NCBI RefSeq assembly: GCF_039852015.1
Contig: NZ_CP156627.1
Coordinates: 744,001 to 808,000, forward strand
Length of the DNA stretch: 64,000 bases
Direction of reading: 5' to 3'
Source of the DNA: Robbsia sp. KACC 23696
GTDB lineage: Bacteria; Pseudomonadota; Gammaproteobacteria; Burkholderiales; Burkholderiaceae
The notes beneath the pieces were generated by a model. It ran no database searches. It worked only from the letters and a program-made list of their open reading frames with translations, and was not told the DNA's origin. The position numbers and the translations under genes are program-made. The number at the start of each line of letters is the position of its first letter. Position 1 is the stretch's first letter. Shown here one piece after another: positions 28,714 through 64,000 of the stretch.

Positions 28714-28731
28714 GTCCGTAGAATATCAGTT

Positions 28732-28750
28732 GCAAATGATTCTCATTTAA
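28732..28750. promoter_or_regulatory. Fur box upstream of the PPTase gene
   Basis: GCAAATGATTCTCATTTAA resembles the 19-base Fur consensus, and AAATGA / TCATTT form a palindrome around TTC. It lies about 85 bases upstream of the PPTase start, a normal operator position, and indicates iron repression of the PPTase gene. Confidence 0.75.
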
Positions 28751-28834: not shown

Positions 28835-29572
28835 ATGATCGAACAGGCTGTACTGCTGCGGAGTGAAGGGCGCTGGCCGTCGGACCTGGCGATATGGCAT
28901 GTCGCCATTCCGGCCTCCGAGCAAGCGATAGACGTTGCGGTCCTCGATGCAAGCGAACATGCACGTGCGGCCCTTTATCGGCAAGACAGTGACCGACGCC
29001 GCTTTCAGGCGACGCGCAGTGCGCTGCGAAACGTGTTGGGTCGGCACCTTGATATCGACCCTTCCTCGGTGCGTTTTAAGACTGGCTCGCGCGGACGACC
29101 GGCGTTGCGCGACACCGAGTCCGCGCTGTCCTTCAACGTTTCTCACGCAGGCGATCATGCCTTGATCGCGTTGTCCGATACGCGGGATGTCGGTATCGAT
29201 GTGGAGCGGATCGATCCGACCTTGGATTGGCGCACCTTACTCGATCTCGTGTGTACGCCTTCCGAGCGCTTGCTGCTATCCGATACGACGCTGTCGCCGG
29301 CGCTGCTGCGACAGCGCTTCTTTCAGTGTTGGACGGCAAAAGAAGCGTTGTTGAAGGCACGGGGACTCGGCATCGCGGATGGTTTGCAGTCACTGTCCAT
29401 CGATTTTTCGGCGGGCGTACGACCCCTCGCGGCAACGCTCGGGCCATCGATGGCCGGCATGAATGACCTTCGCTATTGCTGGTTGCTCGATATACCCGGC
29501 TATATGGGGTGCCTGGCCTTTGCTAGCCCGGCAACAGTGGCGTCGGAAAGGATCGCGTGCGACGGCGCTTGA
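28835..29572 (+). CDS. Sfp-type 4'-phosphopantetheinyl transferase
   Basis: A 245-residue PPTase that loads the phosphopantetheine arm on NRPS carrier domains. The signature motifs are DVGIDVERID (Asp122, Glu124 bind Mg2+ and CoA) and WTAKEALLKARG (Trp166, Lys169, Glu170, Lys174). SFNVSHAGDHALIA supplies the earlier conserved block. A Fur box is upstream and the NRPS locus starts 6 kb away, so its job is to activate these synthetases, which need nine or more such arms. Primary-metabolism AcpS is a different, shorter family. Confidence 0.92.
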   Translation: MIEQAVLLRSEGRWPSDLAIWHVAIPASEQAIDVAVLDASEHARAALYRQDSDRRRFQATRSALRNVLGRHLDIDPSSVRFKTGSRGRPALRDTESALSFNVSHAGDHALIALSDTRDVGIDVERIDPTLDWRTLLDLVCTPSERLLLSDTTLSPALLRQRFFQCWTAKEALLKARGLGIADGLQSLSIDFSAGVRPLAATLGPSMAGMNDLRYCWLLDIPGYMGCLAFASPATVASERIACDGA

Positions 29573-29724
29573 CGAAACAGGCGACGAGAGGCGCGAAGGC
29601 GGGACGTTTGATCGTTCCCCGCTTTATCGAATACATCCGCTTGCAAGAGACATGCAGGCGTTACACAAGAACAGGGATGGCGCGCGACGGTATGTTCGTC
29701 CATCGCCGTCATCCCGATGGAGCG

Positions 29725-30174
29725 ATGGAAACGATGCCCATGCAGCAGATAGAACGTCAGCTTCAAAGTGCGGGCCTGAAGGCCACCATCCCGCGCATTC
29801 AGGTCTTGTCTTTTTTTCGCGGCACGAAACGTCGGCACGCCAGCGCGGAAGAGGTGTTCCGTCACTTGGCGCGTGCCGATGTCGACATCGGGCTCGCCAC
29901 TGTCTATCGCGTGCTAGGCCAACTCGTCGAGGTGGGCATCCTTGCGAGCGGCACGCTGAATTCCGCGGCGGCCGTGTATGAACTCAACGAAGGTCCGCAT
30001 CATGATCACGTGATCTGCGTGCGTTGCGGCCGCGTCGATGAGTTTTCCGATCCGGTGATCGAGGCGCGGCAGAAACTCATGGCCGAAGAGTTGGGCTATA
30101 CCTTGGACAGCCATCATCTCGTGTTGCGCGGCTATTGCGCCGCTTGCCGCCAGCCGCCACCCAACGCACGGTAA
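29725..30174 (+). CDS. Fur-family iron-responsive regulator
   Basis: About 149 residues starting METMPMQQIERQLQSAGLK with a Fur winged helix (ATVYRVLGQLVEVGI) and the metal-site motif HHDHVICVRCGRVDEF, plus a final CAAC. The frame is open upstream to 29557, but those codons do not resemble Fur; starts at 29725, 29734 or 29740 are possible. It sits between the Fur-box-controlled PPTase and the exporter operon. It may be a local Fur paralogue that controls the cluster, rather than the housekeeping Fur. Its 3' end overlaps the convergent NodT gene by 43 bases. Confidence 0.87.
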   Translation: METMPMQQIERQLQSAGLKATIPRIQVLSFFRGTKRRHASAEEVFRHLARADVDIGLATVYRVLGQLVEVGILASGTLNSAAAVYELNEGPHHDHVICVRCGRVDEFSDPVIEARQKLMAEELGYTLDSHHLVLRGYCAACRQPPPNAR

Positions 30175-31520
30175 AGCGACACCGCGGCTTGCAGCCGCGC
30201 CAACTTCAATTGCACCGCTTCGTCGCGTGCCGCATATAAGGTCTGCTGCGCATTCAGCACGACCAGCATCGTCTCCCCGCCTGCGCGATATCGATATTCG
30301 GCGAGCGTCAACGCCTGCTGCGCCTGCGCCAGCTCGTCGTCCTGCGCGCGTTGTTGTGCCTCGGTGCCCGCGATGGCGTTGAGCGCGCGTTCGACATCGG
30401 CAAACGCCGAGACGATCGATTGCCGATACGTGGCCAATAAGGCGGATTTCTGCGCGACGGCGAGGTCGCGTTGCGCGGCGAGCGAGCCGGCATCGAAAAT
30501 CGGCGCCGTAAGCCCGGCCGCGATGCTATACAGAGAGCTGTCGAACAGCGTGCGGAGTCGGTCGTTGCCGAAGCCCGCATTGCCGGTCAGCGTGATCGCT
30601 GGCAACATTGCCGCGCGCGCGGCGACGATATTCGCGTCTGCCGCGCGCAATTGCGCCTCCGCGCTGGCCAGATCGGGACGGCGCGTCAGCAGCGACGACG
30701 GAATGCCTGCATCGACTCGCGGCACCTGCAACGGTTCGAGGGCATCGGTGGAAAGGGTCAAGGCGCTTGGCGGCATGCCGAGCAAGGTGGCCAATGACGC
30801 CGCCGCATCGTTGGCGGCTTGTGCGCGTTCGGCAACGACCCGGCGCTGCGCCGCCAACAGGCCGCGCTGCTGAGCGAGTTCGAGCGGCGTGGCGGCACCG
30901 GCCTGCGCCTGGGCCGTGATCACTGTCAGGATGTCGGCCGCCGATTGGGCATTCTGCTTGGCGATAGCGAGCCGCTCTCGCAGACTCACCGCCTGCAGCC
31001 AGGTCGTGGCGACATCGGCCGTGACCGTCAGCGTGACCGTGTCACGATCGAATTCGGACGCGTGAAGCTGCGCGACCGCGGCATCGCGCTGCGCGCGATT
31101 GCGTCCCCAGAAATCGAGTTCGTAGGTGGCGGCCAGGCCCAGATCGAAGGCGGTCCCCTGCACATTCGTATTGGTGACAAAGCCGCCCTGATGACTGCCG
31201 TCGACAAAACCCGTCACCGTGGGCAGTAAGGTCGCGCCGGCAATCCGGCTGCTCGCTTGTGCTTGCTGTACGCGCGCCACCGCCGCCTCGACGTCGAAAC
31301 TATTCGCGGCGGCCTGGGCGACGAGTCGGTCGAGTTCCGCGCTGCCGAAGTCGTGCCACCACTGCGACGTGACGGCGCTGGCGGGCGCGGCCGGGGGCGC
31401 ATAGCGCCACGTCGGCGGCGGGGTGATTCCTAGCGCGGTGTCGGGGGCGTGCAGCGTGCACCCGGCACCTGTCAGCGTCAGGACGGCGTAAGCGATGCCG
31501 TATCTTAGGCGTTCATTCAT
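30132..31520 (-). CDS. NodT-family outer-membrane efflux lipoprotein
   Basis: A 462-residue outer-membrane factor of the TolC/NodT type. The N-terminus ends in a lipobox-like LTGAGC, followed by two OEP repeats typical of the family (PTVTGFVDGSH region and PAITLTGNAGFGND region) and a C-terminal SLYRALGGGW. It overlaps the macB gene by eight bases. It should form the outer-membrane channel of the same tripartite pump, like OpmQ in PvdRT-OpmQ. Confidence 0.9.
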   Translation of the reverse strand: MNERLRYGIAYAVLTLTGAGCTLHAPDTALGITPPPTWRYAPPAAPASAVTSQWWHDFGSAELDRLVAQAAANSFDVEAAVARVQQAQASSRIAGATLLPTVTGFVDGSHQGGFVTNTNVQGTAFDLGLAATYELDFWGRNRAQRDAAVAQLHASEFDRDTVTLTVTADVATTWLQAVSLRERLAIAKQNAQSAADILTVITAQAQAGAATPLELAQQRGLLAAQRRVVAERAQAANDAAASLATLLGMPPSALTLSTDALEPLQVPRVDAGIPSSLLTRRPDLASAEAQLRAADANIVAARAAMLPAITLTGNAGFGNDRLRTLFDSSLYSIAAGLTAPIFDAGSLAAQRDLAVAQKSALLATYRQSIVSAFADVERALNAIAGTEAQQRAQDDELAQAQQALTLAEYRYRAGGETMLVVLNAQQTLYAARDEAVQLKLARLQAAVSLYRALGGGWRQAAQ

Positions 31521-33579
31521 TCGCGAGCGCCACCACCGGGTCGAGCCGCGCCGCCTGACGGGCCGGCATGAAACCGAATACCAGCCCCGTCAGTAAGGCG
31601 GAGCCAAACGCCAGCGACATCGCCGAGACCGAGAAGATGGCGGAGACGTGCCAGGCGATCAGACCCGCGCCGATCAGCATGCCCGTCAGCACCCCCAACA
31701 CGCCGCCGATGCCGGACACCAAGGTGGCCTCGGTGAGGAATTGGCGCAGGATATCGGTCTGCCGTGCCCCGGTCGCCATGCGTATCCCGATTTCTCGAGT
31801 GCGCTCCTTGACCGACATCAGCATGATATTCATCACGCCGATGCCACCGACGATCAGCGAGATCGCGGCGATCAAGCCGAGCATCAGCGTCAAGGTGCTC
31901 TGGGTTTCAGTCTGCGCCTTGATCGATGCGGCACGATCGTAGATCTGGAAATCCCGCATGTGGTGCGCCTTCTGCAGCGTATCGCCGATGCGTGCGGCGG
32001 TCTGGCTGGCCTGGTCGAGCCGATCGATCAGCACCGAGATCCACGACAGATCGGTCGTTCCGACGATCCGGCGACTGGCCGAGGAGAACGGCATCAACAC
32101 GACGTCGTCGTCATCGGCATTGCCGGAGGTGGCGCCTTTCTCGGCGAGTTCGCCAATGACCTCGAACGGCACGTTGTTGACGAGCACGTAGTGCCCCACT
32201 GGATCGGCGGCGCCGAAGAGTTTTTCGGAAACGCGTTTGCCCAATAACATGACGGCGGACAAGTCCTGCTCGTCCTGTGCATTGAAAAACAAGCCGCGGG
32301 TGGGCGCCCAATCCAGCACCCGCGGTGCATCCTGCGTGACGCCCCAGACCGTCGTCTGGACGTCGAGGTTGCCGTAGCGCAGCGTCACGGCGCCCGACAG
32401 GAAGGGCATCGCCGCCGTGACGTTGGGAACCGCGCGGACAATGTCGGCATCGGCTTCGGACAGCGTGCCGCCCGGGCCGCGTGGATTGTCGCCGCCTGGT
32501 GTGACATACATCCGATTGGTGCCGAAGCTGGAGATCTTGGCGATGACTTCGCGTTCGGTGCCGGCACCGATCGCCAACATCACGATGACCGATGCCACGC
32601 CGATGATGATGCCGAGCAGCGTCAACAGCGTGCGGAAGCGATTGGTCCACAGCACGCGCCACGCCGCGCGCAGCGCCTCGACCGTATCGGTGGCCAGGGA
32701 CGCGGTATGGGAGACGCCTTCGGCCATCGATGCGATCAGCGCCGCGGCGTTCATCGATGGCGCCCGCGTCGGTCGATCGTCGCGGGTCGAGTCGCTGACG
32801 ATCTCGCCATCGCGAATCTCGATCGTGCGCCGCGCGCGGGCCGCGACGCCGCGGTCGTGCGTGATGAGGATGATCGTATGGCCCGCGTCGGCGAGTTCTT
32901 CGAGCAAGGTCATCACTTCCGCGCCGCTTTTGGAATCCAGCGCACCGGTTGGCTCGTCGGCGAGCAGAATATGGCCGCCGTTCATCAGCGCGCGTGCAAT
33001 GGACACGCGCTGCTGTTGACCACCGGAGAGTTGGGGCGGCCGATGATCGAGACGGCTATCGAGGCCGAGTCGCGCGAGGAGCGCGGTCGCGCGCGCCTGC
33101 CGAGCCGCCGTGGGCATGCCTGCGTAGATCGCCGGAATCTCCACGTTCTCCCGCGCCGTCTCGGTGGCAATCAGATGGTATCCCTGAAAGACGAAGCCGA
33201 ATGCTTCACGTCGAAGCCAGGCAAGCTCGTCGGAATCGAGATCGCCGATGTCGCGTCCGGCAAAGCGATAGCTGCCGGACGTCGGCCGATCCAGACAACC
33301 GAGCAGATGCATCAAGGTGGATTTACCGGAGCCGGAGGCGCCGACGATGGCGACGAACTCCCCGGCACGGATGGACAGCGTGACGCCACGCAGTACATCG
33401 ACGCGCGGCGCCGGCACGCCATCGGCATCTGCCGACGTGCCGCCGTACGACTTGCGGATATCCTGGAGCGCGATCAGGGGCACGGACGCCTCCTCGATCG
33501 GCGTATCCACCGACTCGTGCGTTGCGGCATGTGCTTGTCCGTACGCGGGCGATGGCGATGGCGACGCGGCGCTTACCAT
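31513..33579 (-). CDS. MacB-like ABC transporter (ATPase fused to FtsX-type permease)
   Basis: A 688-residue protein. Residues 35-280 form an ABC ATPase (Walker A GASGSGKST at 80-88, signature LSGGQQQR, Walker B ILLADEP). The C-terminal half has the MacB transmembrane/periplasmic domain with four helices (NRFRTLLTLLGIIIGVASV; ISLIVGGIGVMNIMLMSVKERTREIGIR). It overlaps macA by seven bases and the outer-membrane gene by eight, with GGGGAGG before its start. Generic MacB exports macrolides, but in PvdT-type systems the same fold secretes a siderophore. Location beside the NRPS genes favours that role. Confidence 0.92.
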   Translation of the reverse strand: MVSAASPSPSPAYGQAHAATHESVDTPIEEASVPLIALQDIRKSYGGTSADADGVPAPRVDVLRGVTLSIRAGEFVAIVGASGSGKSTLMHLLGCLDRPTSGSYRFAGRDIGDLDSDELAWLRREAFGFVFQGYHLIATETARENVEIPAIYAGMPTAARQARATALLARLGLDSRLDHRPPQLSGGQQQRVSIARALMNGGHILLADEPTGALDSKSGAEVMTLLEELADAGHTIILITHDRGVAARARRTIEIRDGEIVSDSTRDDRPTRAPSMNAAALIASMAEGVSHTASLATDTVEALRAAWRVLWTNRFRTLLTLLGIIIGVASVIVMLAIGAGTEREVIAKISSFGTNRMYVTPGGDNPRGPGGTLSEADADIVRAVPNVTAAMPFLSGAVTLRYGNLDVQTTVWGVTQDAPRVLDWAPTRGLFFNAQDEQDLSAVMLLGKRVSEKLFGAADPVGHYVLVNNVPFEVIGELAEKGATSGNADDDDVVLMPFSSASRRIVGTTDLSWISVLIDRLDQASQTAARIGDTLQKAHHMRDFQIYDRAASIKAQTETQSTLTLMLGLIAAISLIVGGIGVMNIMLMSVKERTREIGIRMATGARQTDILRQFLTEATLVSGIGGVLGVLTGMLIGAGLIAWHVSAIFSVSAMSLAFGSALLTGLVFGFMPARQAARLDPVVALANE

Positions 33580-34760
33580 TCGAACCTCCCCGCCGATGCC
33601 CTTGTATGGTCGATCGATGTCACCAAGCGGTCGCCGGGCCGGAGGCCGGACAGGACCTCGGCGCTCAAGCGGTCGTGCACGCCGATGCGCACATCGCGCG
33701 AGACGACCTTGCCGTCTTCACGCACCTTGGCCAGGTAATGATCGGGCTGCCCGTCGACCGGCGTGATGGCCGATAGCGGCGCGACGACCACGTCCTTCGC
33801 GCGCGCTTCGACGAAGAAGACCTGCGCGCTCATCTGCGGCATCAGCTGCCGGTCGCGGTTCGCGACATCGAAAAGGACGGTGTAGAGCACGACCTTGCCC
33901 TGGGCCGCATTGGACGACGACGCGGTGCCCTGTCCATTGCTTGCCGCCGCCGATCGATTCGGCGGCGCCGGCAGGATTTGCCTTACCTCGCTTGCCCATT
34001 GTCGATCCGGCGCTCCGAGCGTCGTGAAATACACCGGCATCCGCGGCTGCACGTGGAGGATGTCGGCTTCCGAGACTTGCGTCCAGACCGTCATCGTCGA
34101 CAGGTCGGCGATGCGCAGAATCGTCGGCGTCTGGTAGGTGGCGTTCAGTGTCTGCCCTTCTCGCGCATCCAGGCTCACGACGGTGCCATCCATCGGCGCA
34201 TAGATCCGTGTATAGCCGAGTTGCGCGTCGGCGCCGCGCAGTGTCGATTGCGCGCCGACGATCTGCGCGCGCACGTTGTCCGCGGACGCGCGGGCGGCAC
34301 GCAATGCCGCCCGTGCGGTTTCCAGGTCTTCCTGGCGCGTGGCCCCGCTGGCATTCATCGTCTGCTGGCGTCGGTACTGCGTCTCGGCGAGATCGCGCTG
34401 CGCGAGGGCGCCGGCCAACTGCGCACGCAGGCTGTCGAGCGTTGCCCGATCGGCGTCGACTTGTGCCTGCTGCACGCTCGGATCGATTTCCACCAGCAAC
34501 TGGCCGCGATGCACGGTGTCGCCTGCCTGCACGTAGAGGCGACGAATGGCACCCGACGCCTGCGCGCCGACATCGACATAGCTATGCGGCTGCAAGGTCC
34601 CGAGCGCGGTCACATTGACTTCGATATTGCCGCGCGCGATCGGCACGGTCGTGATCTTCTCGACGCTACGAAAGAACGATATCCAAAGAATCCAGGCGAC
34701 CGCGAGCACCACGATGACGAGGAGGCCGGATCGGAGGTGTCTGCGACTGCGTTGCTTCAT
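33573..34760 (-). CDS. MacA/PvdR-like periplasmic adaptor (HlyD family)
   Basis: A 395-residue membrane-fusion protein with one N-terminal helix (SGLLVIVVLAVAWILWIS), lipoyl-type half motifs (VDVGAQASGAIRRLYVQAGD), a coiled-coil hairpin (about 110-180) and beta-barrel domains. It should bridge the MacB-like ABC protein and the NodT-like channel. It is the first gene of the leftward exporter operon, which shares its upstream region with the rightward NRPS operon. Confidence 0.92.
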   Translation of the reverse strand: MKQRSRRHLRSGLLVIVVLAVAWILWISFFRSVEKITTVPIARGNIEVNVTALGTLQPHSYVDVGAQASGAIRRLYVQAGDTVHRGQLLVEIDPSVQQAQVDADRATLDSLRAQLAGALAQRDLAETQYRRQQTMNASGATRQEDLETARAALRAARASADNVRAQIVGAQSTLRGADAQLGYTRIYAPMDGTVVSLDAREGQTLNATYQTPTILRIADLSTMTVWTQVSEADILHVQPRMPVYFTTLGAPDRQWASEVRQILPAPPNRSAAASNGQGTASSSNAAQGKVVLYTVLFDVANRDRQLMPQMSAQVFFVEARAKDVVVAPLSAITPVDGQPDHYLAKVREDGKVVSRDVRIGVHDRLSAEVLSGLRPGDRLVTSIDHTRASAGRFEW

Positions 34761-35385: not shown

Positions 35386-35400
35386 TGAGAATCATTCTCA
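35386..35400. promoter_or_regulatory. Fur box in front of the siderophore operon
   Basis: TGAGAATCATTCTCA is a perfect 7-1-7 palindrome of the Fur/IHF-like TGAGAAT type, just downstream of the -10 of the predicted promoter, where repressor binding would block transcription. It lies 146 bases before mbtH. Confidence 0.8.
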
Positions 35401-35546: not shown

Positions 35547-35789
35547 ATGAGTTGGGACGACGAGAACGCGGAGTTCGACGTGGTGATGAACCACGAAGAG
35601 CAGTATTCGATCTGGCCGAGCTATAAGCAGATTCCAGGAGGCTGGCGCGCGGTGGGCAAGCGTGGAAAGAAGGCGGAGTGCCTGGCCTATATCGATGAAC
35701 ACTGGACCGATATGCGGCCGGCCAGCTTGCGCAAGGCAATGGACGGGGCGGCGGCGGAGTCTGCGCCCGCGACCCAGCCGATGCACTGA
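35547..35789 (+). CDS. MbtH-like protein
   Basis: An 80-residue MbtH-family protein, the small partner that many NRPS adenylation domains need for folding and activity. It has the family core ([19 protein letters not shown] and then [15 protein letters not shown]), with the conserved Ser, Trp and Pro positions. It is the first gene of the rightward operon, behind the Fur box; the TE gene begins eight bases after its stop. Confidence 0.93.
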
Positions 35790-35797
35790 TCCACGTC

Positions 35798-36634
35798 ATG
35801 CACAGCGCAGGACATGGAATGCGACCCGACGTACGACGCGAGACGGTGACCTTGCTCTGTTTGCCGTATGCCGGCGGCAGCGCGAGCCTTTATCGCGAAT
35901 GGACGGCGCGTTTGCCCGACTGGATCAAGCTGATGCCGTTGCATATGCCGGGGCGCGGTGTGCGACTCGCCATGCGGCCCATGCATCGCTGGCCGGAATT
36001 GATCGATCTGCTGGTGGCCGACGCTTTGCCGCATGTCAGCGGCCCTTATGCGATTTTCGGTCACAGCTTGGGGTCGCTTGTCGGCATCGAGCTGGCCTAT
36101 GCCCTCGATGCCCGGCATGGCAGGCCGCCTGTGTGGGTGGGTGCATCGGCCGGCAAGGCCCCGAGTCATCGACCCCGGATGCTGCATTGGCTCGATTGCC
36201 CGGAAGACGAATTTCTGGACGAGGTCAGGGCGCTGAAAGGCATGCCGGAGGCGCTGCTGCAGGACCGTGAATTCATGAAGTTGGTACTCCCTTATCTGCG
36301 CGCCGATTTTCATTTGTCCGGCAGTTATCTGTATCCCGATGCAGGTCGTATGACACCGTTGCACTGTCCTTTGCTTGTTGTCAATGGCACTGAGGACTAC
36401 GAAATGCATGCCGATCCATTGACGCTGAGCGAATGGTCAAGAGAAACCCTTGGTACCTGCGATCGACGCGTGATAGACGCGGGACATTTTTTCATCAACA
36501 CGCATCGCGATGCATTGATCGACATGGTCGTCGACAGTCTCGCGCGTGCGGTTCATCTATCCAGGCCCTATGCCACGCCGCTACACGCCTGCACGGTTGA
36601 CAGTCAGCGGCCATCGAGGAGGTTTGTATCGTGA
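35798..36634 (+). CDS. Type II thioesterase
   Basis: A 278-residue stand-alone thioesterase, which clears misloaded carrier domains. It has LLCLPYAGGSAS at the start, the nucleophile motif GHSLG (Ser90), and a final GHFF with the catalytic His; an Asp in TEDYE is plausible. Starts at 35798 and 35819 are both possible. Its stop overlaps the next gene's GTG start by four bases. Confidence 0.92.
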   Translation: MHSAGHGMRPDVRRETVTLLCLPYAGGSASLYREWTARLPDWIKLMPLHMPGRGVRLAMRPMHRWPELIDLLVADALPHVSGPYAIFGHSLGSLVGIELAYALDARHGRPPVWVGASAGKAPSHRPRMLHWLDCPEDEFLDEVRALKGMPEALLQDREFMKLVLPYLRADFHLSGSYLYPDAGRMTPLHCPLLVVNGTEDYEMHADPLTLSEWSRETLGTCDRRVIDAGHFFINTHRDALIDMVVDSLARAVHLSRPYATPLHACTVDSQRPSRRFVS

Positions 36635-38103
36635 TCAAGTCGTCGCCCCTTTTCGATTTCACGCCGTATCTCGCCCAGCGCGAGACGGTGCTCGAATTGA
36701 TTCGCGAATTCGCTTCGCATCAGGCGTTTCGCAGCGCGGCAGTGGAAGAGCTGGAGCTGGATGAAGATTTCTATCGCCGACCGTTGCGCCCCGAGGACCT
36801 GGAATTTCTGCAGTTCAAGAAACCGGTTCTCTCGGAGCGGGTCAGTCGGCTGCCGTCACTGGCGACGCAGCGCTTGCTGCTGAGTCTTAACGAGGTGGCC
36901 ATTGCGCGCTTTCCTCGGGCGGAGGACGTGCTCGGGTCGCAGGTCGACGCGGCAGCGGAGTACGCCCGGTTCGATGCGTTCTACGGTGAGCAGAATCAAC
37001 TGTTGGGCGCACGCATCCGGCCCTATCTCGAGCACTACGGTTTCACGTTTCTCGGTAACGAAGCGCATCCCAGCGAAACCATCGGCGACTTCACCGGGCG
37101 TTTTCGCGCGCTGATCGCGCAGGAAACCGCGTTCTGGGCGCAGATGTTCGCGATGTTGTCGCGCAACGATTATCTGGTGGAGGGGCTGCGCTTCATCATG
37201 ATCCAGCGTTGGAGCCTTGCGCCGTCCAGACGGTCCGCCGTCGCGCGGGCCGCCGCGTCCGGATTCTTCGACTGCGTGGCCGAGCACGATCGTCCCGATG
37301 TCGCGTCGGCTGCAGACGATGCCACGCTTGCCCGGGTCGCCGAATTCGTCGGCGTGACGCGGCGTGAGCATTCGTACTGGCAGTTCTATCTGCCGACCAG
37401 CATGGTCAAGTGCAATTTGTTGTACGCGCTGGGCTCGCGGCCCGATCGCGCGTTTGCCTTGCTGGGTGCCGCCTTCGTCGCCGAAGCGGAAGCGCTGGCG
37501 TTTTCGGCGGCGTTGGCGACGGCCTGTCCGCATCTGGTGCCCTCGGCCACTCGCCCGCAGGACGCTGCCGGTGCGCTAGAGGCCGTGGTCGCGCGTTTCG
37601 CGCGTGCGTTGAGCGCCATTCAAACGCGCTTCGGCGCCGAAGGTTTGTTGCGCGCTGGACAAGGGATGGGCGCCGGCGAAAAAATCGCCGACCGCGCCCG
37701 TTGGGATCTGGGTGAGCAATTGAAGTGGCTTTCGGCAATCGAGCGCTATGTGGCATTCGCCGAGAAGATCGATACGCGGGTCAATCGCGAATGTCCCGAA
37801 ATCGATCGGGAGACCTTCGTCGAACCGCGCGACATGTGTTCGACCACCCATGTGCATAACGATCACCGATTGGTCGTGATCCGCAGCCCGGCGCCGGAAG
37901 GGACGATTCAGATGCATTTCTGGGGCAATCTCGGCATGCGTCATGAAATGAAAGAGGGCGACAAGGTGTTGATCCCCGACGGCCGTTTGCATGGCTCCAC
38001 CGTCGTTTGCGAGGAGTGCACCTACGACCAGCCGATCATCCCGGACGAATGGATCGAGGCGCTGCTCGACGAACAGGCCGAGCCGGTGTCGAGCGTCGCA
38101 TAG
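36631..38103 (+). CDS. GrbD-like cupin/N-oxygenase candidate for graminine formation
   Basis: A 490-residue protein with a helical N-terminus, a middle helical block (about 160-300, REHSYWQFYLPTSMVKCNLL) that resembles the heme-oxygenase-like diiron fold, and a C-terminal cupin (about 400-470) with His407, His409 and His454 as likely metal ligands. The same order and almost the same cupin spacing are known for SznF, which builds the N-nitroso group of streptozotocin. GrbD of gramibactin clusters pairs with a YqcI/YcgG protein, as here. I infer it helps convert hydroxylated arginine into the diazeniumdiolate residue. A GTG start follows AGGAGG and overlaps the thioesterase stop. The GrbD family name is from memory of gramibactin loci, so a search is needed to confirm it. 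Confidence 0.7.
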   Translation: MIKSSPLFDFTPYLAQRETVLELIREFASHQAFRSAAVEELELDEDFYRRPLRPEDLEFLQFKKPVLSERVSRLPSLATQRLLLSLNEVAIARFPRAEDVLGSQVDAAAEYARFDAFYGEQNQLLGARIRPYLEHYGFTFLGNEAHPSETIGDFTGRFRALIAQETAFWAQMFAMLSRNDYLVEGLRFIMIQRWSLAPSRRSAVARAAASGFFDCVAEHDRPDVASAADDATLARVAEFVGVTRREHSYWQFYLPTSMVKCNLLYALGSRPDRAFALLGAAFVAEAEALAFSAALATACPHLVPSATRPQDAAGALEAVVARFARALSAIQTRFGAEGLLRAGQGMGAGEKIADRARWDLGEQLKWLSAIERYVAFAEKIDTRVNRECPEIDRETFVEPRDMCSTTHVHNDHRLVVIRSPAPEGTIQMHFWGNLGMRHEMKEGDKVLIPDGRLHGSTVVCEECTYDQPIIPDEWIEALLDEQAEPVSSVA

Positions 38104-38166
38104 GCCGATATCGGATCGAGACAAGTGAGCGGGCACATATCAACACCGTTGCAGGTGGAGGGGATC

Positions 38167-39216
38167 ATGCAGTCAGAAGCAAGCGGCGGATCGAAACAGG
38201 ACAGCCGAAAACCACAGACAAGCGACTGGCGCACGCGCATCATCGTCGGCGACCAACTCGGCGTGGAAGATCCGCCCGCTTGGATGCCGCAGTCGTACAA
38301 GACGCTTTACGACATCGTGATCGACCCGCGCTATCCGTGCTTTTTCGGTACGCAGGCGGAGCGTCGCGGCGAGATGTTCTATTCCTATGTGCAGGGCAAG
38401 GACATCAGCGGCATGGCGGCCACGATGGCGACGTTCGCACGGCTTGCCGACGAACCGGCCTATCGCAAACACAATATCGCCGTGTTTTTCGAGCCGGATG
38501 CCGAGCCCCTGTCGCATCAGGCGTATCACGATCATTTCTGGCGCACCTTGCAGCATCTGCATGATGTCGATCCGGATCCGGAAGCCGACTATCAACCCGA
38601 TCCGCATGACGAGGCATGGGAGTTTTCTTTCGCCGGTCTGCAGACGTTCGTCGTCTGCGCCTGTCCGTCTTTCGAGACGCGTCACAGTCGCAATCTCGGT
38701 CCTGGCATGGTGTTGCTGTTTCAGCCGCGCGCGGTGTTCGTCGACACCATTACGAACAAAGTCATCGGTCGAGAGGCGCGTAATCAGGTGCGTGCGCGTT
38801 TGCGCGAGTGGGATGCCGTCGAGCCGCATCCGGATCTCGGTTTCTATGGCGATCCCGGCAACCTCGAATGGAAGCAGTACTTCCTCTCCGATGAAAACGT
38901 CGCGGCGATCGATAAATGTCCTTTCCTGAACCGTCGTCATGCGACGTTGCAGCAACGCTCCGCGATGGCGGAAAAGGCTCCTTCGAATGCCCCGATCGTC
39001 GCAGCCGACGTATTGGGCGCGACGCCTCCGGCCGGCGGCGTACTCACCCCGGAGCAGCGGATCGCCGCCATGAACGTGGCCCGCGGGGTTTCCGGCGCTT
39101 CCGAGCCCTTTTCCCTGTCGCGCGACGGATCGCGACGCTTCGACGGCGACGCATCGCGCGAGAGCGCGCCTCGCCATGAAAGCGCATCGCGCGCTCACGA
39201 CGAGCGCGACGGTTGA
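38167..39216 (+). CDS. GrbE-like YqcI/YcgG-family protein (likely arginine N-hydroxylase)
   Basis: A 349-residue protein of the YqcI/YcgG family. Diagnostic blocks are DPRYPCFFGTQAERRGEMFY, HDEAWEFSFAGLQTFV, ARNQVRARLREWD and DKCPFLNRRH. In D-cycloserine and gramibactin pathways this family (DcsA, GrbE) N-hydroxylates L-arginine using heme. The C-terminal 70 residues are low-complexity (DGSRRFDGDASRESAP) and may be disordered. The ATG at 38167 follows GGAGGGG; an upstream GTG would add 14 residues. It lies next to the GrbD-like gene and before the NRPS, exactly as expected for graminine supply. Confidence 0.82.
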   Translation: MQSEASGGSKQDSRKPQTSDWRTRIIVGDQLGVEDPPAWMPQSYKTLYDIVIDPRYPCFFGTQAERRGEMFYSYVQGKDISGMAATMATFARLADEPAYRKHNIAVFFEPDAEPLSHQAYHDHFWRTLQHLHDVDPDPEADYQPDPHDEAWEFSFAGLQTFVVCACPSFETRHSRNLGPGMVLLFQPRAVFVDTITNKVIGREARNQVRARLREWDAVEPHPDLGFYGDPGNLEWKQYFLSDENVAAIDKCPFLNRRHATLQQRSAMAEKAPSNAPIVAADVLGATPPAGGVLTPEQRIAAMNVARGVSGASEPFSLSRDGSRRFDGDASRESAPRHESASRAHDERDG

Positions 39217-39304
39217 GCCTGCTACGAAAGGTGAGGGGCTTGGCGCGCCGTCATCGGCTCCGGTCGATCGGGCTGCGGAAACGGGACTTTGGGTATATTT
39301 CAAG

Positions 39305-55496
<16,192 letters not shown>

Positions 55497-55507
<11 letters not shown>

Positions 55508-58500
55508 AACCCCTCAACCGTCGAATGTGGCATGCCGACTCGGCGAACTGGCCGCGACGCATCCCGATGCGACGGCGATCATCACGGTGTCTGCCGATGG
55601 CGATACCCGCCATGACTATGCCGACCTCGAACGTCGCGCGCGATGCATCGCATCCTGGTTCGTCGCGCACGACGCGGTGGGCCGGCGTGCGCTATTGCTT
55701 GCCGACAGTGGCATCGATTACGTCGCGGCATTTTTCGGCTGCCTCTATGCCGGCGTGATCGCGGTACCGGTCTATCCGCCGGAGTCGGCGCGCGAACAGC
55801 ACCTCGCGCGGCTGCGTGGCATCGCGCAGGATTGCGATGCCGCCTACGTGCTGACCACCGGCGATATCGATGAGAAGCATGCCGACGCGCTTGCCGCCAT
55901 CGCGCCGGGCGCGGCCATCGTCGTGATCGATCGCGTCTGTGCCGATCCCGGCCTCGGCGACATGCAGGTCGCGCCGCGCGTCATTGGCGGCGGCGACGAT
56001 ATCGCGTTTCTTCAGTACACGTCCGGCTCGACGGCGGCGCCGAAGGGCGTGATGGTCTCGCATGCGAATATCTTTGCGAACGAGAACGCGATCAAAGCAG
56101 GCCTCGGCGTCACGACCGAGGACGTGTTTGTCAGTTGGCTGCCGCTGTATCACGACATGGGGCTGATCGGCTCACTGTTGCAGCCGATCCATAGCGGCAT
56201 CCCGCTGGTGCTGATGTCGCCGCAGTTCTTTCTCGAACGCCCGGTGCGCTGGCTCGAAGCGATCGCGCGTCATCGCGGCACGATCTCGGGCGGTCCGGAT
56301 TTCGCGTACCGCCTGTGCTGTGAGCGAGTACGGGATACGCAAATCGGCGGGCTCGATCTGTCGAGCTGGCGCGTCGCGTTTTGCGGCTCGGAACCGGTCC
56401 GGCATGACACGCAAGAGGACTTTGCCGAACGCTTCGCGGCGGCAGGCTTCGACGCCGATGCACGCTATCCCTGCTACGGCCTGGCCGAAGCGACGCTCTT
56501 CGTCAGCGGCGGCACGCGCGGTGTCGGGCTGGTGAGCGCGGCCTTTGCGGAAGCGGACTTGCGTGCCGGTCGTGCGCGCGCCGATGCGCAAGGCGCCCGA
56601 CTCGTGCAGTGCGGTCGCGCGGCCTTTGCCCACGACATCCAGATCGTCGATCCCGACAGCCGCGCGACGTTGCCCGACGGCGATTCGGGCGAGATCTGGG
56701 TCAGCGGGCCGAGCATCGCGCACGGCTATTGGCAAAACGCGACCGCCAGCAACGAGACATTCGTCGAGCACGACGGCGTGCGTTGGCTGCGCACCGGCGA
56801 TCTGGGCTTCCGCCACGACGGCGGCTTGTATGTCGTGGGGCGTCGCAAGGATATGATCATCGTGCGCGGGCAAAACCTGTACCCGCAGGACATCGAGCGG
56901 ATTATCGAAGCCGAGGTGGACGTCGTGCGCAAGGGGCGGGTCGCCGCCTTCGGTGTCACGCTGGCCGGACGCGAAGGGATCGGCGTGGCGGTCGAGGTGT
57001 CGCGCAGCACGCAGAAGCTGGTGCCGCCCCAAGCACTCGTCGATGCCTTGAACGAAGCCGTCAGCGTCGCGTGCGGCGAGCCGTTGTCGCTGGCCGTGCT
57101 GCTGCAGCCGGGCGCGCTGCCGAAGACGTCGAGCGGCAAGCTTCAACGCGCTGCCACGGCCCAGCGATGGCAGCAACGCGACCTCGACGCCTATGCGATC
57201 TATGAAGCGGGCCAGTTTGTCGATGGCGCGCCAGCGGCGCAGGGTGACGCGGCCGATGTGCCGCTCGACGCGCTGGAGACCGAGCTGGCGACGCTATGGT
57301 CCGACGTCCTCGAACGCACGGTCGCCACGGCCGACGCCCACTTCTTCTCGCTCGGCGGCAGTTCACTGCGCGCAACGCAACTGACCGCGCGTATCCGAGA
57401 GCGCTGGCAACTGCGTTTCGAGATGGCCGATCTCTTTGCCGCGCCGGTACTGCGCCGTTGCGCTGCCGTGATTGCCGCGCGGATCGCAGCGGGCGAGTCA
57501 TACCGGACCGAGACGATCGTCGCCGCGAGTGACGACATCGGACGCTATCCGGCGTCATTGGGGCAACGGCGCTTTTGGTTCCTGTGGCAGATGGACCGGC
57601 TTAGCAATGCCTATCATATGGCCGGTGGCCTCGCGGTCCATGGCGTCGTCGATATCGCCGCGTTGCACGTCGCCCTCGACGCGCTTGCCAGACAGCACGG
57701 CGCATTGCGCACGACCTTCGCGGCGGACGAGGCGGCGGACGTCGTGCAAATCGTGCAGGCGCCCGCGCCGATCGCGATCGCCGAGATCGACGCGCGGCAT
57801 TGCGCCGACCGCGTGGACGCGTTACTGCACACCTTCGTGGGCACGCCGTTCGATCTGGTCGCGGGGCCGTTATGGCGTGCCGCGATAATCCGCGTGGGCG
57901 AGACCGACAGCCGCATCGTGCTCGCGATGCACCACGTCGTCGCCGATGGGTGGTCAGTCGATCTGCTGCTCGACGAGCTGGCGCGCCGCTATGGCGTGGC
58001 CAGCGAGGGCGAAGCACAGCGGTTCGCGCCGCCGCTGCTGCGTTATCCGGACTATGCGCATTGGCAACGTCGATGGGTCGAGACCGCCGAGAAGACGGCG
58101 CAGCTGCAGTACTGGCGCGCGCAGCTCACGCCGCCCTATGTGCCGCTGGTGCTTCCGGTCGATCAGGCACGGACTCCGGCGACGGACCATCCCGCCGGCC
58201 ATCTGCCGTTTGCGATTCCCGACGAACTGCGCGACGCGCTGCGGCAAGTCGAGCGCGAACAGGGCTTGACCTTCTTCACGGTGTCGATCGCGGCATTCGC
58301 GCTCGCGCTGTATGCCTATACAGGGGAAAGCGATATTCGCATCGGCGTGCCGCTGGATGGCCGTGCGCGAAGCGCGCTGCGCGAGTTGGTGGGTTTCTGC
58401 GTCAATACGCAGGTCGTGCGATGCCAGATCGCGCCGCACGCGTCGCTGAGCGAGGCGCTTCATGTGATGCGTACTGCCGTGCTCGGCGCGCAAGATAAGC

Positions 58501-61500
58501 AGGATCTGCCCTTCGACCTGTTGGTCGATGCGCTGCGGCCGGAACGCGGAGCCGCGGGGGCGCCGTTGTTCGACGTGATGTACGGGCATCAGCCCGCCAT
58601 CGACGGCGTCGTGCAGGCGATGGCAGGCGTTACCGCGCATCGTTTCAGGGTGCCGGATCAAACGGTGCCGTTCGAACTGACGCTCGATACCTACGAGGCA
58701 GCCGACGGTCAGGTGTCCGGCACCTTTACCTATGCAGCCGATCTGTTCGCACCGCAGACGATCGACGGCATCGCCGCGCGCTACCGCGCCTTGCTCGCCG
58801 CCTTTGCCGCCGATACCGATCGCCGCGTGGCGGATGCGCTATCGGACGGCGATAGCGAACGCAGCCTCCTGCTGTCATGGTCGGGAAGCATGGCCGCCGA
58901 TAACGCGCCGCCGCTGGTCATCGACGCCATCGCGCAGCGTGCCGCGCGCGATCCCGACGCGATAGCGGTCATCGAGGGGACAGGCGCGCTTCGGTATGAG
59001 GCCTTGAATGCACGCGCCAATCAGTTGGCGCATCGGCTGATCCAGATGGGCGTCGGTCAGGATGTGCGCGTGGGCATTGCGGTCGAGCGCTCGATCGATA
59101 TGATCGTCGGTCTGCTCGCGATCCTGAAGGCCGGTGGCGCTTATGTTCCGCTGGATCCGTCCTATCCGCGTGACCGGCTCGCCTACATGCTGGAGGATAG
59201 TCGCGTCGACTTGCTGCTGACGCAGTCGCACGTACGCGATCGCGTTCCCGCCGCACACGTGTCCTCGGTCATTGAAATCGACCGCGTCGATCTGTCCGCC
59301 GAGCCGGTGGGGAATCCGAGCGTTGCCGTGCATCCGGACAGTCTCGCCTATGTGATCTACACGTCGGGATCGACGGGAAAACCGAAGGGCGTGGGCATTT
59401 CGCAGCGCGCGCTCGCGATCCATACGTCCGCGACGATCGATTTCTGTCGGATGACGGCCGCCGATCGCGTGCTGCAGTTTGCAACGTTCAGCTTCGATGG
59501 ATTCGTCGAGGAAATGTATCCGACCTTGTCGGTCGGCGCGGCGATGGTGCTCCGGGGCGAAGATCTCTGGGACAGCAAGACGCTCTACCAGAAGCTGCAC
59601 GCGCATCGAATCAGCATCATCGACGTCACGACGGCCTACTGGCATCTGCTCGCCCAGGACTTCGCCGCGGCCGGTCCACGCGACTACGGCGCGCTGCGGC
59701 TGGCCATCGCGGGCGGTGAGGCGATGGCGCTCGAAGGTGTGAAGGCCTGGCGTGCGGCCGGGCTGCAGCACGTGACGCTGCTCAACACCTATGGACCGAC
59801 GGAGACGACGGTGTCGTCGACGCTGTTCGACTGTGCAGCGATGCTCGCATCGCACGCGCACGACGGTCGCGTGCCGATCGGACGCGCGCTCCCCGGCCGG
59901 CGGGTCTATGTGCTCGATGCGCGCGGCGAACTGGCGCCGCGCGGCGTGTCGGGCGAGTTGTGCATCGGCGGACCGGGTGTCGCACGTGGCTATCTGAACC
60001 GTTCCGCGCTGACCGCGGAACGGTTTGTCCCGGATCCCTTCGACGGCGAGGGCGGTCGCCTGTATCGCACCGGGGATCTGGTGCGCTGGCGTGCCGACGG
60101 TGTATTGGAGTATCTCGGCCGAATCGACCATCAAGTGAAGATTCGCGGCTTCCGGATCGAGTTGGGCGAAGTCGAGGCGCAGTTGCTGGCGCATCCCGCG
60201 GTTCGCGAGGCCGTGGTCGTGGCGCAGGACGTCGCGGGCGGGACGCGATTGGTGGGCTATGTCACGGCGCAGCCGGATCAGATGCCGACACCGGAGGCGC
60301 TGCGCGTCGCGCTCGCCGCTTTGCTGCCCGACTATATGGTGCCGGGCGCGATCGTCGTGCTCGACCGACTGCCGCTGACGCCCAGTGGGAAAGTGGACCG
60401 CAAAGCCTTGCCGGTGCCTGCGCCGATACAGACGGCGCAAGCCTATGCAGCGCCACGCGGCGACGTGGAAGGGGCGCTGGCGCGGATCTGGCAGGACCTG
60501 TTGGGCGTCGAGCGCATCGGTCGCGACGACAACTTCTTCGCGCTCGGTGGCGACTCGATTCTCAGCCTGAAGGCGGTCGCCCGCGCGCATGACGTGGGCT
60601 TGCAATTCACCCCCCGACAACTCTTCGATGCGCAGACGGTGGCCGCGCTTGCGCTGGCGTTGGCCGGTGCATCGGGCAGTGGCGTGCCGCCATTGCGGCC
60701 GTGCGCGTCGCGCGATCGACAGCGCCTGCCGCTGTCGTATGCGCAGCAGCGCCTTTGGTTCCTCTGGCATTTGCAGCCCGAGAGCACGGCGTATCACATG
60801 GCGGGCGCGTTACGCCTGCAAGGCGTGGTGGACGCGCAGGCGGTGCGGGCGAGCTTCGCTGCACTGGTGGCGCGCCACGAGAGCCTGCGCACGACGTTCG
60901 AGGCCGACGCCAGCGGCCAGGCGGTACAGGTGATCGGCGTCGATGCACGTTTCGACTGGCGTCACGTCGATGCCGTCGATGCCGTTGTTGGCGCGTCGGA
61001 CCGGCAAGACGGGCAGGCGGTGCGGGAACGGATCGGCGCCGCGCTGGCAGGCGAGCCGTTCGACCTGACATCGGGGCCGCTGTTGCGCGTGGCGTTGATC
61101 CGTGTGCAGCCGGACGAGCACGTGCTCGCGGTATCGATGCATCACATCGTGTCCGATGGCTGGTCGGTCGAGGTATTGCTGGAGGAATTCGTCGCCGCCT
61201 ATCGCGCGACCGTGATGGGCGAGGCCCTGTCGCTGCCGGTCTTGCCGGTGCAGTACGCGGACTATGCGCTGTGGCAGCGCGACTGGCTGGAGGCCGGCGA
61301 GCGCGAGCGGCAACTGGCGTATTGGCGCGAGACGCTGGGTGACGATCATCCGGTATTGGCGCTGCCGTCGGACCATCCGCGGCAGGCGATCGCGCAGTAC
61401 CCGGCAAGCACGCTGCCGGTCGCGCTGCCGCCCTCGATCGCGGAGGCGGTGCGTCGCACCGCGGGCGTGCACGGTACGACGCCGTTTGTCGTGCTGCTCA

Positions 61501-64000
61501 CCGCGTTTACGATGTTGCTGCACCGCTATACGGGACAGACCGATATTCGCGTCGGGTCGCCCGTTGCCAATCGAGATCGGCCGGAGACGGCAGGCGTGGT
61601 CGGCCTGTTCGTGAACATGCAGGTCCTGCGTGCGCACTTGCACGATCGCATGCCTTTGACCGCGCTGCTTGACGACATGAAGGCCACCGTCCGCGATGCG
61701 CAGGCGCACGCGGATCTGCCGTTCGACGTATTGGTCGACGCGTTGCAGCCGGAGCGTAGCTTGAGCCATACACCGCTGTTCCAGGTCATGTTCAACCATC
61801 TTCGCGAGGATGACCGGGTCCTGAATGCCTTGCCCGGTATGACGGTGGCATGGCTGCCGCCGCTGACGGGGATGGCGCAGTGCGAACTGACGCTGACGAC
61901 GACGGAAAGCGTCACCGGCGCCATGTCGGCCAGCCTGACCTATGCAGAGACGCTGTTCGATGCCGCGACGATGGTGCAGTTCGGGCGGCATTACGTGTCG
62001 ATGTTGGCGGCCTTGACCGACGCCTCGGCGCAAGTCCTCTCGGATGTCACGTTGTTGTCCGAGCGGGAGCGGGACGCGTTGCTGGCCCAAGGGACATGCC
62101 CCGAACCTTATCCGGATGCCATGCCGGTTCACGCGCGCATAGCGCTTGCAGCACGGACGCATCCGGAACGACTCGCCGTGCGCTACGGGGAGACGCGCCT
62201 CAGTTATGGCGAGCTGGATGCGCGGGCGAATCAGCTGGCGCATCGACTCGTCGCGCTCGGTGTCGGCCCCGAGGTCGGCGTCGGCATCGCCGTGGAGCGG
62301 TCGGTCGAGATGGTCGTCGGTCTTCTTGCCATCCTGAAGGCCGGTGGCGCGTATGTCCCGCTGGATCCCGAGTATCCGCAGGAACGGCTGGCCTACATGC
62401 TCGACGACAGCCGCATCCGTCTGCTGTTGACGCAGTCATGGATCCGCGCCCGTCTGCCGCTGTCCGACGCCGTGACGCTGCTGGATCTCGATACGATCGA
62501 CGTCTCGCAGGAGCCCGTGGACGCGCCCTCGGTCGGCGTGCACGGCGACAACGTCGCCTATGTGATCTACACGTCGGGCTCCACCGGACGTCCGAAAGGC
62601 GCCGCGAACCGGCACAGCGCATTGACGAACCGCCTGGCCTGGATGCAAGCCGCCTACCGTCTCGATGCGCACGACGTGGTGCTGCAGAAGACGCCGTTCA
62701 GCTTTGATGTATCGGTCTGGGAGTTCTTCTGGCCCTTGGTAAGCGGCGCCGGGCTGGCGCTTGCCGAGCCCGGGGCGCACCGCGATCCGCAACGTCTGGT
62801 CGCGTCGATCGCGGCGCATGCGGTCACGACGCTGCATTTCGTGCCGTCGATGCTGCAGGCATTCGTCGATCATGCGGGTGTGCGCGCCTGCACGGGACTG
62901 ACGCGGATCGTGTGCAGTGGCGAGGCCTTGCCGGCGGATCTCGCGAACCGGACGCTGGCGTTGCTGCCGCGCGCGGCGCTATACAACCTCTACGGCCCCA
63001 CCGAAGCGGCGATCGACGTGACCCATTGGCAATGTCGCCCCGGCGACGCGGTGGTGCCGATCGGCAATCCGATCGGGAATGTCAGCACTCATGTGCTCGA
63101 TCGATCGATGCAGCTCGTGCCGCGCGGGGTGGCCGGCGAGCTGTATCTGGGCGGCGCGGGCCTGGCGCGCGGTTATCTGTATCGGCCGGCCTTGAGCGCC
63201 GAGCGCTTCGTGCCCGATCCGTTCGATCCGAACGGCGCGCGTCTGTACCGCACCGGCGATCTGGTGCGGTGGTCGGCGCAGGGCGCGCTGGAGTATCTGG
63301 GCCGGCTCGACCATCAGGTCAAGATCCGCGGCTTCCGCATAGAACTTGGCGAGATCGAGACGCAATTGGTGCAGGCCGGGGCGCGTGAGGCGGTCGTGAC
63401 CGCCCAGGAAGGCCCGGGCGGCACGCGACTGGTCGCGTACGTCACCGCGCAAACCGGACCGGCGCGCGATGTGCATGCCGACGTGAGCGACGATGTGACC
63501 AGTGATGTGGTCAGCGATGTGGCCAAATTCCGCATCGCTCTCGCGCGGCACTTGCCGGACTATATGGTGCCGGGCGTGATCGTCATACTCGACGCGCTGC
63601 CGCTGAACGCAAACGGCAAGGTCGACAGAAAGGCGCTGCCGGCGCCGACCTATCAAGTGCAGGGCTATCAGCCGCCGGAGGGCGCGGCGGAAACCGCACT
63701 CGCAGCCATTTGGCAGGCCGTGTTGGGCGTGGATCGGGTCGGCCGCCACGATAATTTCTTCGAGTTGGGCGGCGATTCCATTCTCAGCCTGCAAATCGTC
63801 GCGCGCGCGCGGCAAGCCGGATGGCACGTCAGCTCGCGGCAATTGTTCGAGCACCAGACGGTCGGCCTGCTGGCAACGGTCGCGCGGCGAACCGATGTTG
63901 ATGCCGATGTCGATGCCGATGCCGTCGCGGTTCAGCAGGAACAGGGCAGCGTACCGCTGTTGCCGATCCAGTCGTGGTTCTTCGCCACGCCGGTGGCGAA
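55497..64000 (+). CDS. FAAL-initiated NRPS, 5' part (cut by window edge)
   Basis: Starts ATG at 55497 inside the last codons of the first NRPS, behind AAGG, and stays open to the window end (at least 2834 residues). Approximate residues: FAAL 1-562 (YTSGSTAAPKGVM, WLPLYHDMGLIG), ACP 589-662 (Ser623 in LGGSSL), C 682-1115 (HHVVADGWS), A 1140-1638, PCP 1652-1724, C 1745-2188 (HHIVSDGWS), A 2205-2715, PCP 2729-2798, then the first residues of an E domain (VPLLPIQSWFF). The second A domain pocket DVWHVSLID is serine; the first reads D-G-E-I-I-G-T-V-S, not one I can assign. FAAL activates a fatty acid as acyl-AMP and loads it on the ACP, so this protein should start the lipopeptide although it is encoded second. 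Confidence 0.92.
63468..63524 (+). repeat. Five-copy 12-base repeat inside the second A domain
   Basis: Codes the units DVHA, DVSD, DVTS, DVVS, DVAK. It sits between the A8 region and the PDYMVP block of the A domain, where the sister serine domains have only a short linker. It looks like a replication-slippage expansion kept in frame. Confidence 0.75.
63894..63923 (+). repeat. Short Asp-Val/Ala codon repeat in the PCP-E linker
   Basis: Encodes DVDADVDADA as two and a half 12-base units, in the linker between the last visible PCP and the E domain. It resembles the expansion at 63468 and is a likely slippage tract. Confidence 0.65.

Follow-up and report, generated by a model that had tools for sequence, protein, structure and literature searches.

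The window analysed here is a stretch of 64,000 nucleotides from Robbsia sp. KACC 23696, positions 744001-808000 of contig NZ_CP156627.1 (C2:744001-808000), in a genome of 6.32 Mb in three contigs. Positions with the prefix C2 lie on the same contig past the window end; all others are window positions. The locus is very probably a Fur-controlled cluster of about 55 kb for biosynthesis, export and uptake of a graminine (gramibactin-type, C-diazeniumdiolate) siderophore. A preliminary description of this DNA had covered a part of the cluster, the remainder of which runs beyond the window. Genes, residues and adenylation codes are read from the sequence, and from them we infer the product, the module order and the chemistry. 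The core genes and sites are listed below; NRPS is nonribosomal peptide synthetase, and its domains are C, condensation; A, adenylation; T, thiolation; E, epimerization; TE, thioesterase. Gra is graminine, a rare amino acid that releases nitric oxide, Orn ornithine and OHAsp beta-hydroxyaspartate. Adenylation codes were read by motif anchors, and domain limits are approximate.

35386..35400, + strand: Fur box TGAGAATCATTCTCA with 0 mismatches, 5' of mbtH in a divergent intergenic region
35547..35789, + strand: MbtH-like protein (PF03621, E=1e-23)
35798..36634, + strand: type II thioesterase (PF00975, E=7e-40)
36631..38103, + strand: GrbD-like protein, haem-oxygenase-like fold and C-terminal cupin (SznF homology and fold), putatively forming the N-N bond
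38125..39216, + strand: predicted GrbE-like YqcI/YcgG haem-thiolate arginine N-hydroxylase (PF08892, E=1.4e-64; AglA, E=5e-37)
39176..55507, + strand: NRPS N1, C-A(Gra)-T-E-C-A(Ser)-T-E-C-A(Ser)-T-C-A(Gra)-T-TE; the true start may be ATG 39305
40748..42367, + strand: first graminine adenylation domain, code DVHRTGLVAK
45248..46867, + strand: serine adenylation domain followed by an E domain, code DVWHVSLIDK
49730..51349, + strand: second serine adenylation domain, without E domain, code DVWHVSLIDK
52886..54505, + strand: second graminine adenylation domain, code DVHRTGLVAK
54665..55507, + strand: C-terminal thioesterase domain for chain release (GWSLGG motif and sequence)
55497..64000 and on to C2:814994, + strand: NRPS N2, FAAL-T-C-A(DGEDIGTVSK)-T-C-A(Ser)-T-E-C-A(DGEDHGTVTK)-T-C-TauD
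C2:815013-818426: N3, an Asp module (code DLTKIGHVGK) preceded by a condensation-like domain that lacks the HHxxxDG motif
C2:820978-830682: Gly-Thr-Gly NRPS (adenylation codes), past N3 and the TonB receptor gene

Graminine siderophore clusters are recognized in antiSMASH by GrbD and GrbE together with an NRPS containing C and A domains (PMC12971057); their products are expected to carry N-nitrosohydroxylamine groups, which lose NO (M-30) and bind Fe(III). The Robbsia locus contains an SznF-like GrbD homologue with an intact cupin, an adjacent GrbE homologue of the YqcI/YcgG family, two adenylation domains with the graminine code, and genes for a TonB receptor and for FhuD-like and FhuB-like importer components. 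The cluster adds a member to a known siderophore class and is not a new kind of system. The two adjacent reading frames of the preliminary description, 36631-38103 and 38125-39216, are both present; the operon it proposed, with mbtH, thioesterase and NRPS genes, agrees with the domain matches listed above and with the gene overlaps, and the Fur box it placed before this operon is the perfect site at 35386-35400.

The GrbD-like protein has 490 amino acids and starts at a GTG overlapping the stop codon of the thioesterase gene (GTGA). No Pfam or NCBIfam model matches it, and neither library names GrbD. Its assignment follows from comparison with SznF of the streptozotocin pathway. Residues 45-468, nearly the full length, align with SznF at E = 6e-27, and the only good structural matches of its AlphaFold model (mean predicted local distance difference test score 74) are SznF chains (best E = 3.7e-16, template modelling score ~0.67-0.71; next unrelated match, E = 0.008). 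The cupin histidines His407, His409 and His454 are invariant in 33 of the 33 homologues compared. Thus the GrbD-like identity holds, and of the haem-oxygenase-like middle part and cupin claimed earlier the fold and the cupin stand, but most diiron ligands are missing. At the seven positions that we take, after McBride 2021, to form the SznF diiron site, Glu285 is identical and Glu317 similar, and the others differ; the site as a whole is also unconserved across the GrbD family. As most ligands are absent, active diiron chemistry in GrbD was rejected. The haem-oxygenase-like domain, its metal site mostly lost, is probably only a scaffold, and hydroxylation, unlike in SznF, is presumably carried out by GrbE. 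This ligand pattern matches the published picture, in which the iron site of the haem-oxygenase-like domain is often missing from SznF homologues encoded next to NRPS genes, the cupin being preserved and arginine hydroxylation being taken over by the YqcI/YcgG haem enzyme ChmN (PMC11177257). The locus fits, in another GrbD clade, the view that the two enzymes share the work: the haem protein GrbE would hydroxylate arginine, and GrbD would form only the N-N bond.

The assignment of the second protein to the YqcI/YcgG family is borne out by the PF08892 and AglA matches. The more probable translation start is ATG 38167, which follows GGAGGGG; GTG 38125 is the less likely one. The haem and substrate residues of AglA are matched by Cys72, Phe175, Arg189, Arg202, Phe205, Arg219 and Arg223; one of these seven positions is a Lys to Arg replacement, and Cys72 is the haem-ligating cysteine. 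Among GrbD relatives with at least 40% identity, a GrbE gene lies within about 0.5 kb in all cases, apart from contig ends or a GrbE-NRPS fusion. Since the adjacency is near-universal, the pairing, correctly likened earlier to gramibactin-type loci, is not due to chance.

The pair also occurs in other arrangements and lineages. In genome G310 (locus L103), GrbE forms the N-terminal part of a FAAL-bearing NRPS starting at 13193, resembling MobF of tistrellabactin. Adjacent pairs were also seen in the Alphaproteobacteria Reyranella, Acetobacter senegalensis and Nitrospirillum (L085, L086, L090). Accumulibacter and Propionivibrio (L093, L097, L102) have a gene for a GrbE-like protein (42%) about 2.2 kb from that of a distant GrbD/SznF homologue (27-32%), which may point to an unexplored N-N bond pathway.

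DVHRTGLVAK is the published graminine code (PMC10391617), and the residue left unassigned in the preliminary description is thus graminine, specified twice by N1. The serines proposed there are also seen, as three Ser codes. The two Gra domains of N1 are 99.6% identical over 540 amino acids and the two Ser domains 98% over 519, a sign of recent internal duplication or gene conversion. N2 comprises 5165 amino acids and ends in a TauD domain (PF02668, E=5e-42); the last 11 bases of N1, stop codon included, also belong to its reading frame. As FAAL marks the start and TE the end of an assembly line, N2 should come first and N1 last. Under a collinear reading, the predicted chain is acyl-(Orn/Lys)-D-Ser-Orn-OHAsp-Gly-Thr-Gly-D-Gra-D-Ser-Ser-Gra, 11 residues; we regard the chances of this order as roughly even. 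Comparison with plantaribactin supports Orn for DGEDHGTVTK and suggests that DGEDIGTVSK probably specifies Orn or Lys. The two graminines and the beta-hydroxyaspartate would provide six donor atoms. The predicted length would exceed the six to eight residues of the characterised members with established sizes (gramibactin, plantaribactin, tistrellabactins). The chain matches no diazeniumdiolate siderophore in the literature searched, in line with the earlier suggestion of a new member.

A shorter product is an alternative to this chain. If the Gly-Thr-Gly NRPS were not used, the product would be acyl-(Orn/Lys)-D-Ser-Orn-OHAsp-D-Gra-D-Ser-Ser-Gra. Its eight residues equal the size of plantaribactin and tistrellabactin, and on inspection of the sequences the condensation-domain types permit direct chain transfer from N3 to N1. 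However, the Gly-Thr-Gly NRPS gene belongs to the same gene run and its stop codon overlaps the start of the acylase gene; moreover, the graminine clusters of Pandoraea, Chitinasiproducens, Pollutimonas and Bordetella sp. LUAb4 likewise have an NRPS at this place, next after the gene for the Asp module or the hydroxylase. Omission of this NRPS seems rather unlikely.

Hydroxamates on the Orn residues were considered and rejected: the cluster showed no gene for an Orn/Lys N-oxygenase, and the genome-wide matches to PF13434 are weak and partial, most control genomes giving matches as well.

The code reading was controlled on two clusters. With the same script, Paraburkholderia graminis reads OHAsp-Thr-Thr-Gra-Gly-Gra, which is the composition of gramibactin; with a C8 acyl group, the cyclic [M+H]+ of 835.3792 equals the published linear value minus water. 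The Burkholderia cluster G338 reads OHAsp-Ser-Ser-(DGEDHGTVTK) and Gra-(DAEYLGTVTK)-Gly plus Gra. With Orn and Gln at the coded positions and a C12 acyl group the mass is 1105.5484, as published for plantaribactin, and it is on this predicted mass that the cluster is called plantaribactin type. Because the acyl length was fitted in both controls, the agreement tests composition and acyl group jointly. A figure legend names 3-hydroxymyristate for plantaribactin (PMC6771848), which would not fit the G338 composition. Gramibactin itself is excluded as the Robbsia product, as its assembly line, OHAsp-Thr-Thr-Gra-Gly-Gra, is not matched by the window codes.

N3 is followed by a weaker Fur-like site (C2:818498, two mismatches) and then by genes for the TonB receptor, the Gly-Thr-Gly NRPS, an N-terminal nucleophile (NTN) acylase (C2:830666-833293), a FhuD-like binding protein, a FhuB-like permease, an ATPase and a cyclic-peptide exporter of the PvdE type (TIGR01194, E=5e-173), which ends at C2:838870. 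The perfect Fur box before mbtH is a 7-1-7 palindrome, and the window contains two Fur-like sites with at most one mismatch versus 0.04 expected. In several of the nearest relatives, near-matches to this box precede grbD by about 1.1-1.2 kb. A graminine metallophore for another metal can be imagined: chalkophomycin uses the GrbD/GrbE homologues ChmM and ChmN and binds Cu(II) (PMC11177257). But the Fur boxes, the beta-hydroxyaspartate machinery, the TonB siderophore receptor and the Fhu-type importer all indicate Fe(III), making a copper ligand very improbable here.

The GrbD tree has two clades. The first comprises P. graminis, the plantaribactin type, R. andropogonis and the other Robbsia genome. 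The second contains the window protein together with those of P. ferrariae, P. phosphatilytica, P. bannensis, P. eburnea, Pandoraea and Chitinasiproducens, with Pollutimonas and Bordetella sp. LUAb4 on deeper branches. The nearest relatives of the window GrbD lie outside its own genus (P. ferrariae, 80% identity over kept columns), which suggests horizontal acquisition. No characterised product was recognised in this second clade, P. megapolitana and Trinickia not being placed by name in the tree. P. ferrariae and P. fungorum ES3-20 were excluded from the NRPS comparison, as their contigs end shortly past grbE. For the related Pandoraea clusters, a product of the pandorabactin type was considered and rejected, pandorabactin being an N-hydroxyornithine/Asp siderophore without graminine (PMC12144892).

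All three Robbsia genomes examined (the one analysed here, G001 and G002) carry a graminine cluster. In the other two GrbD is 53-57% identical to that of the window, and the NRPS line-ups differ as far as read. In Paraburkholderia sp. BCC1885 the two GrbD types occur together, on different contigs (L038, L060); they share 75% and 56% identity with the window protein.

Gramibactin (grb) of P. graminis is similar to the Robbsia system in its adjacent GrbD and GrbE (56% and 67% identical), FAAL homologue, OHAsp-type Asp module, DVHRTGLVAK codes, TonB receptor and FecCD-type importer. It differs in having six residues and a retained C8 acyl, and its GrbD belongs to the other clade. The plantaribactin cluster (Burkholderia plantarii/glumae type, G338) shares the FAAL start, OHAsp, two Ser, DGEDHGTVTK and two Gra, whereas in its eight-residue product Gln and Gly separate the two Gra, its module order is different and its GrbD is 57% identical. 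Tistrellabactin (mob) of Tistrella mobilis shares the Gra code, OHAsp, an NTN hydrolase and, in the Robbsia case as a possibility, a lipid-free product (PMC10391617); however, it has one Gra plus an N-hydroxy-Orn hydroxamate among eight residues, a GrbE-NRPS fusion and a GrbD of 51% identity. A similar architecture is that of the graminine clusters of Pollutimonas bauzanensis and Bordetella sp. LUAb4, where the N1 beside grbDE opens with Gra-E and closes with TE, N2 has FAAL and TauD (fused or in the next gene), and a further NRPS lies past the hydroxylase. The residue content of these two is different, and they are known from genomes, no product being reported in the literature searched.

The start of the acylase gene overlaps the Gly-Thr-Gly NRPS stop. 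The protein belongs to the PvdQ/MacQ family (E=6e-157 to the PvdQ model; 524 bits vs a cut-off of 950). Similar acylases are encoded in the clusters of G310, P. eburnea, Pandoraea iniqua, Chitinasiproducens and Pollutimonas; within the sequence read from P. graminis, none of PvdQ type was found. Maturation and export of pyoverdine rely on PvdE, PvdQ and PvdRT-OpmQ (PMC6206403), and the Robbsia locus likewise combines a cyclic-peptide exporter of the ATP-binding cassette (ABC) family, a PvdQ-family acylase and a MacAB-OprM pump. Unlike in pyoverdine systems, no chromophore genes were seen in the locus, and the substrate would be a graminine peptide. Because the acylase and exporter resemble those of pyoverdine maturation, and because tistrellabactin, with an NTN hydrolase gene, is a product without lipid (PMC10391617), deacylation of the mature siderophore is plausible, a proposition that by analogy we hold to be about evenly balanced.

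Alternatively, the lipid may be kept, giving an amphiphilic siderophore like gramibactin, megapolibactin and plantaribactin, with the acylase acting elsewhere, e.g. on acyl-homoserine lactones. This is a serious possibility, a little short of even. The characterised Burkholderiaceae members retain their acyl chains (PMC6771848; also the mass fit in the controls), and the best structural match of the acylase, which stays well under the PvdQ cut-off, is not PvdQ but 5c9i, a "protein related to penicillin acylase". On the other hand, the acylase gene is tied into the operon by its overlap and pairs with the PvdE-type exporter, it recurs in those clusters of this GrbD clade that were read full length, and the lipid-free tistrellabactin provides a precedent. 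If the siderophore is indeed deacylated, siderophores soluble in water would belong to one GrbD clade, and those bearing a lipid to the clade of gramibactin.

The following pathway can be proposed. Free arginine would be N-hydroxylated by GrbE, and the hydroxyarginine rearranged to L-graminine by the GrbD cupin. The FAAL of N2 would load a fatty acid, to which N2 would add the basic residue, D-Ser and Orn; Asp loaded by N3 would be hydroxylated by the terminal TauD domain of N2. The separate NRPS would then append Gly-Thr-Gly, and N1 would append D-Gra, D-Ser, Ser and Gra before release by the thioesterase. The PvdE-type exporter would carry the chain to the periplasm, where the PvdQ/MacQ-like acylase may strip the lipid, and MacAB-OprM may expel the peptide. 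The Fe(III) complex would be recovered via the TonB receptor and the Fhu-type ABC importer.

Taken as a whole, the tentative proposal is that the cluster makes a graminine siderophore of 11 residues, longer than any other of its class, which is assembled with a lipid anchor and loses it in the periplasm in the manner of pyoverdine, by way of the PvdE-type exporter, PvdQ-like acylase and MacAB pump; we consider the full combination doubtful. Several points weigh against the product and pathway proposed here. The product is a prediction, the cluster being known from its genes. The residues for DGEDIGTVSK and DGEDHGTVTK were assigned, as Orn or Lys, by the plantaribactin comparison only, and the place of Gly-Thr-Gly in the chain is deduced. 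Iterative modules do occur in the graminine class, in tistrellabactin (PMC10391617). A related acylase is encoded about 30 kb from the NRPSs in the plantaribactin-type G338, and plantaribactin keeps its lipid (PMC6771848). Finally, no in vitro reconstitution of GrbD and GrbE themselves is reported in the literature searched (PMC11705231).

Few graminine siderophores have been isolated so far, and none from Robbsia is reported in the literature searched. The genus includes plant pathogens. For a new nitric oxide-donating siderophore, the locus yields a predicted structure and a mass precise enough to be tested, and it may tie this class to a pyoverdine-like maturation route. The calculated [M+H]+ of the cyclic, deacylated 11-mer with two Orn is 1154.503; the linear form would give 1172.514, each Lys in place of Orn would add 14.016, and a C12 acyl group would raise the value to 1336.670.

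Upstream of the mbtH-thioesterase operon, and transcribed divergently from it, lies the MacAB-OprM efflux set, preceded by further genes:

28731..28745, + strand: Fur-box-like site TGCAAATGATTCTCA, 1 mismatch to TGANAATNATTNTCA, 5' of the phosphopantetheinyl transferase gene
28835..29572, + strand: 4'-phosphopantetheinyl transferase for carrier-domain activation (PF01648, E=5e-16; PF22624); homologues in relatives' clusters
29665..30174, + strand: Fur-family regulator (PF01475, E=2e-35); start approximate, the reading frame may open at 29557
30132..31520, - strand: outer-membrane efflux protein of NodT/OprM type (TIGR01845, E=2e-97)
31513..33579, - strand: MacB-type ABC exporter, putatively PvdT-like in role (MacB structures, E=3e-165)
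33573..34760, - strand: MacA-type periplasmic adaptor, putatively PvdR-like in role (NCBIfam MacA, E=4e-79); homologues in relatives' clusters

A MacB homologue is present near grbD in 12 named loci. The Fur-family gene at the cluster edge (29557-30174) scores 129 bits with the NCBIfam Fur model (cut-off 146) and recurs near grbD of P. ferrariae and BCC1885 (65-70% identity); it may encode a cluster-specific regulator.

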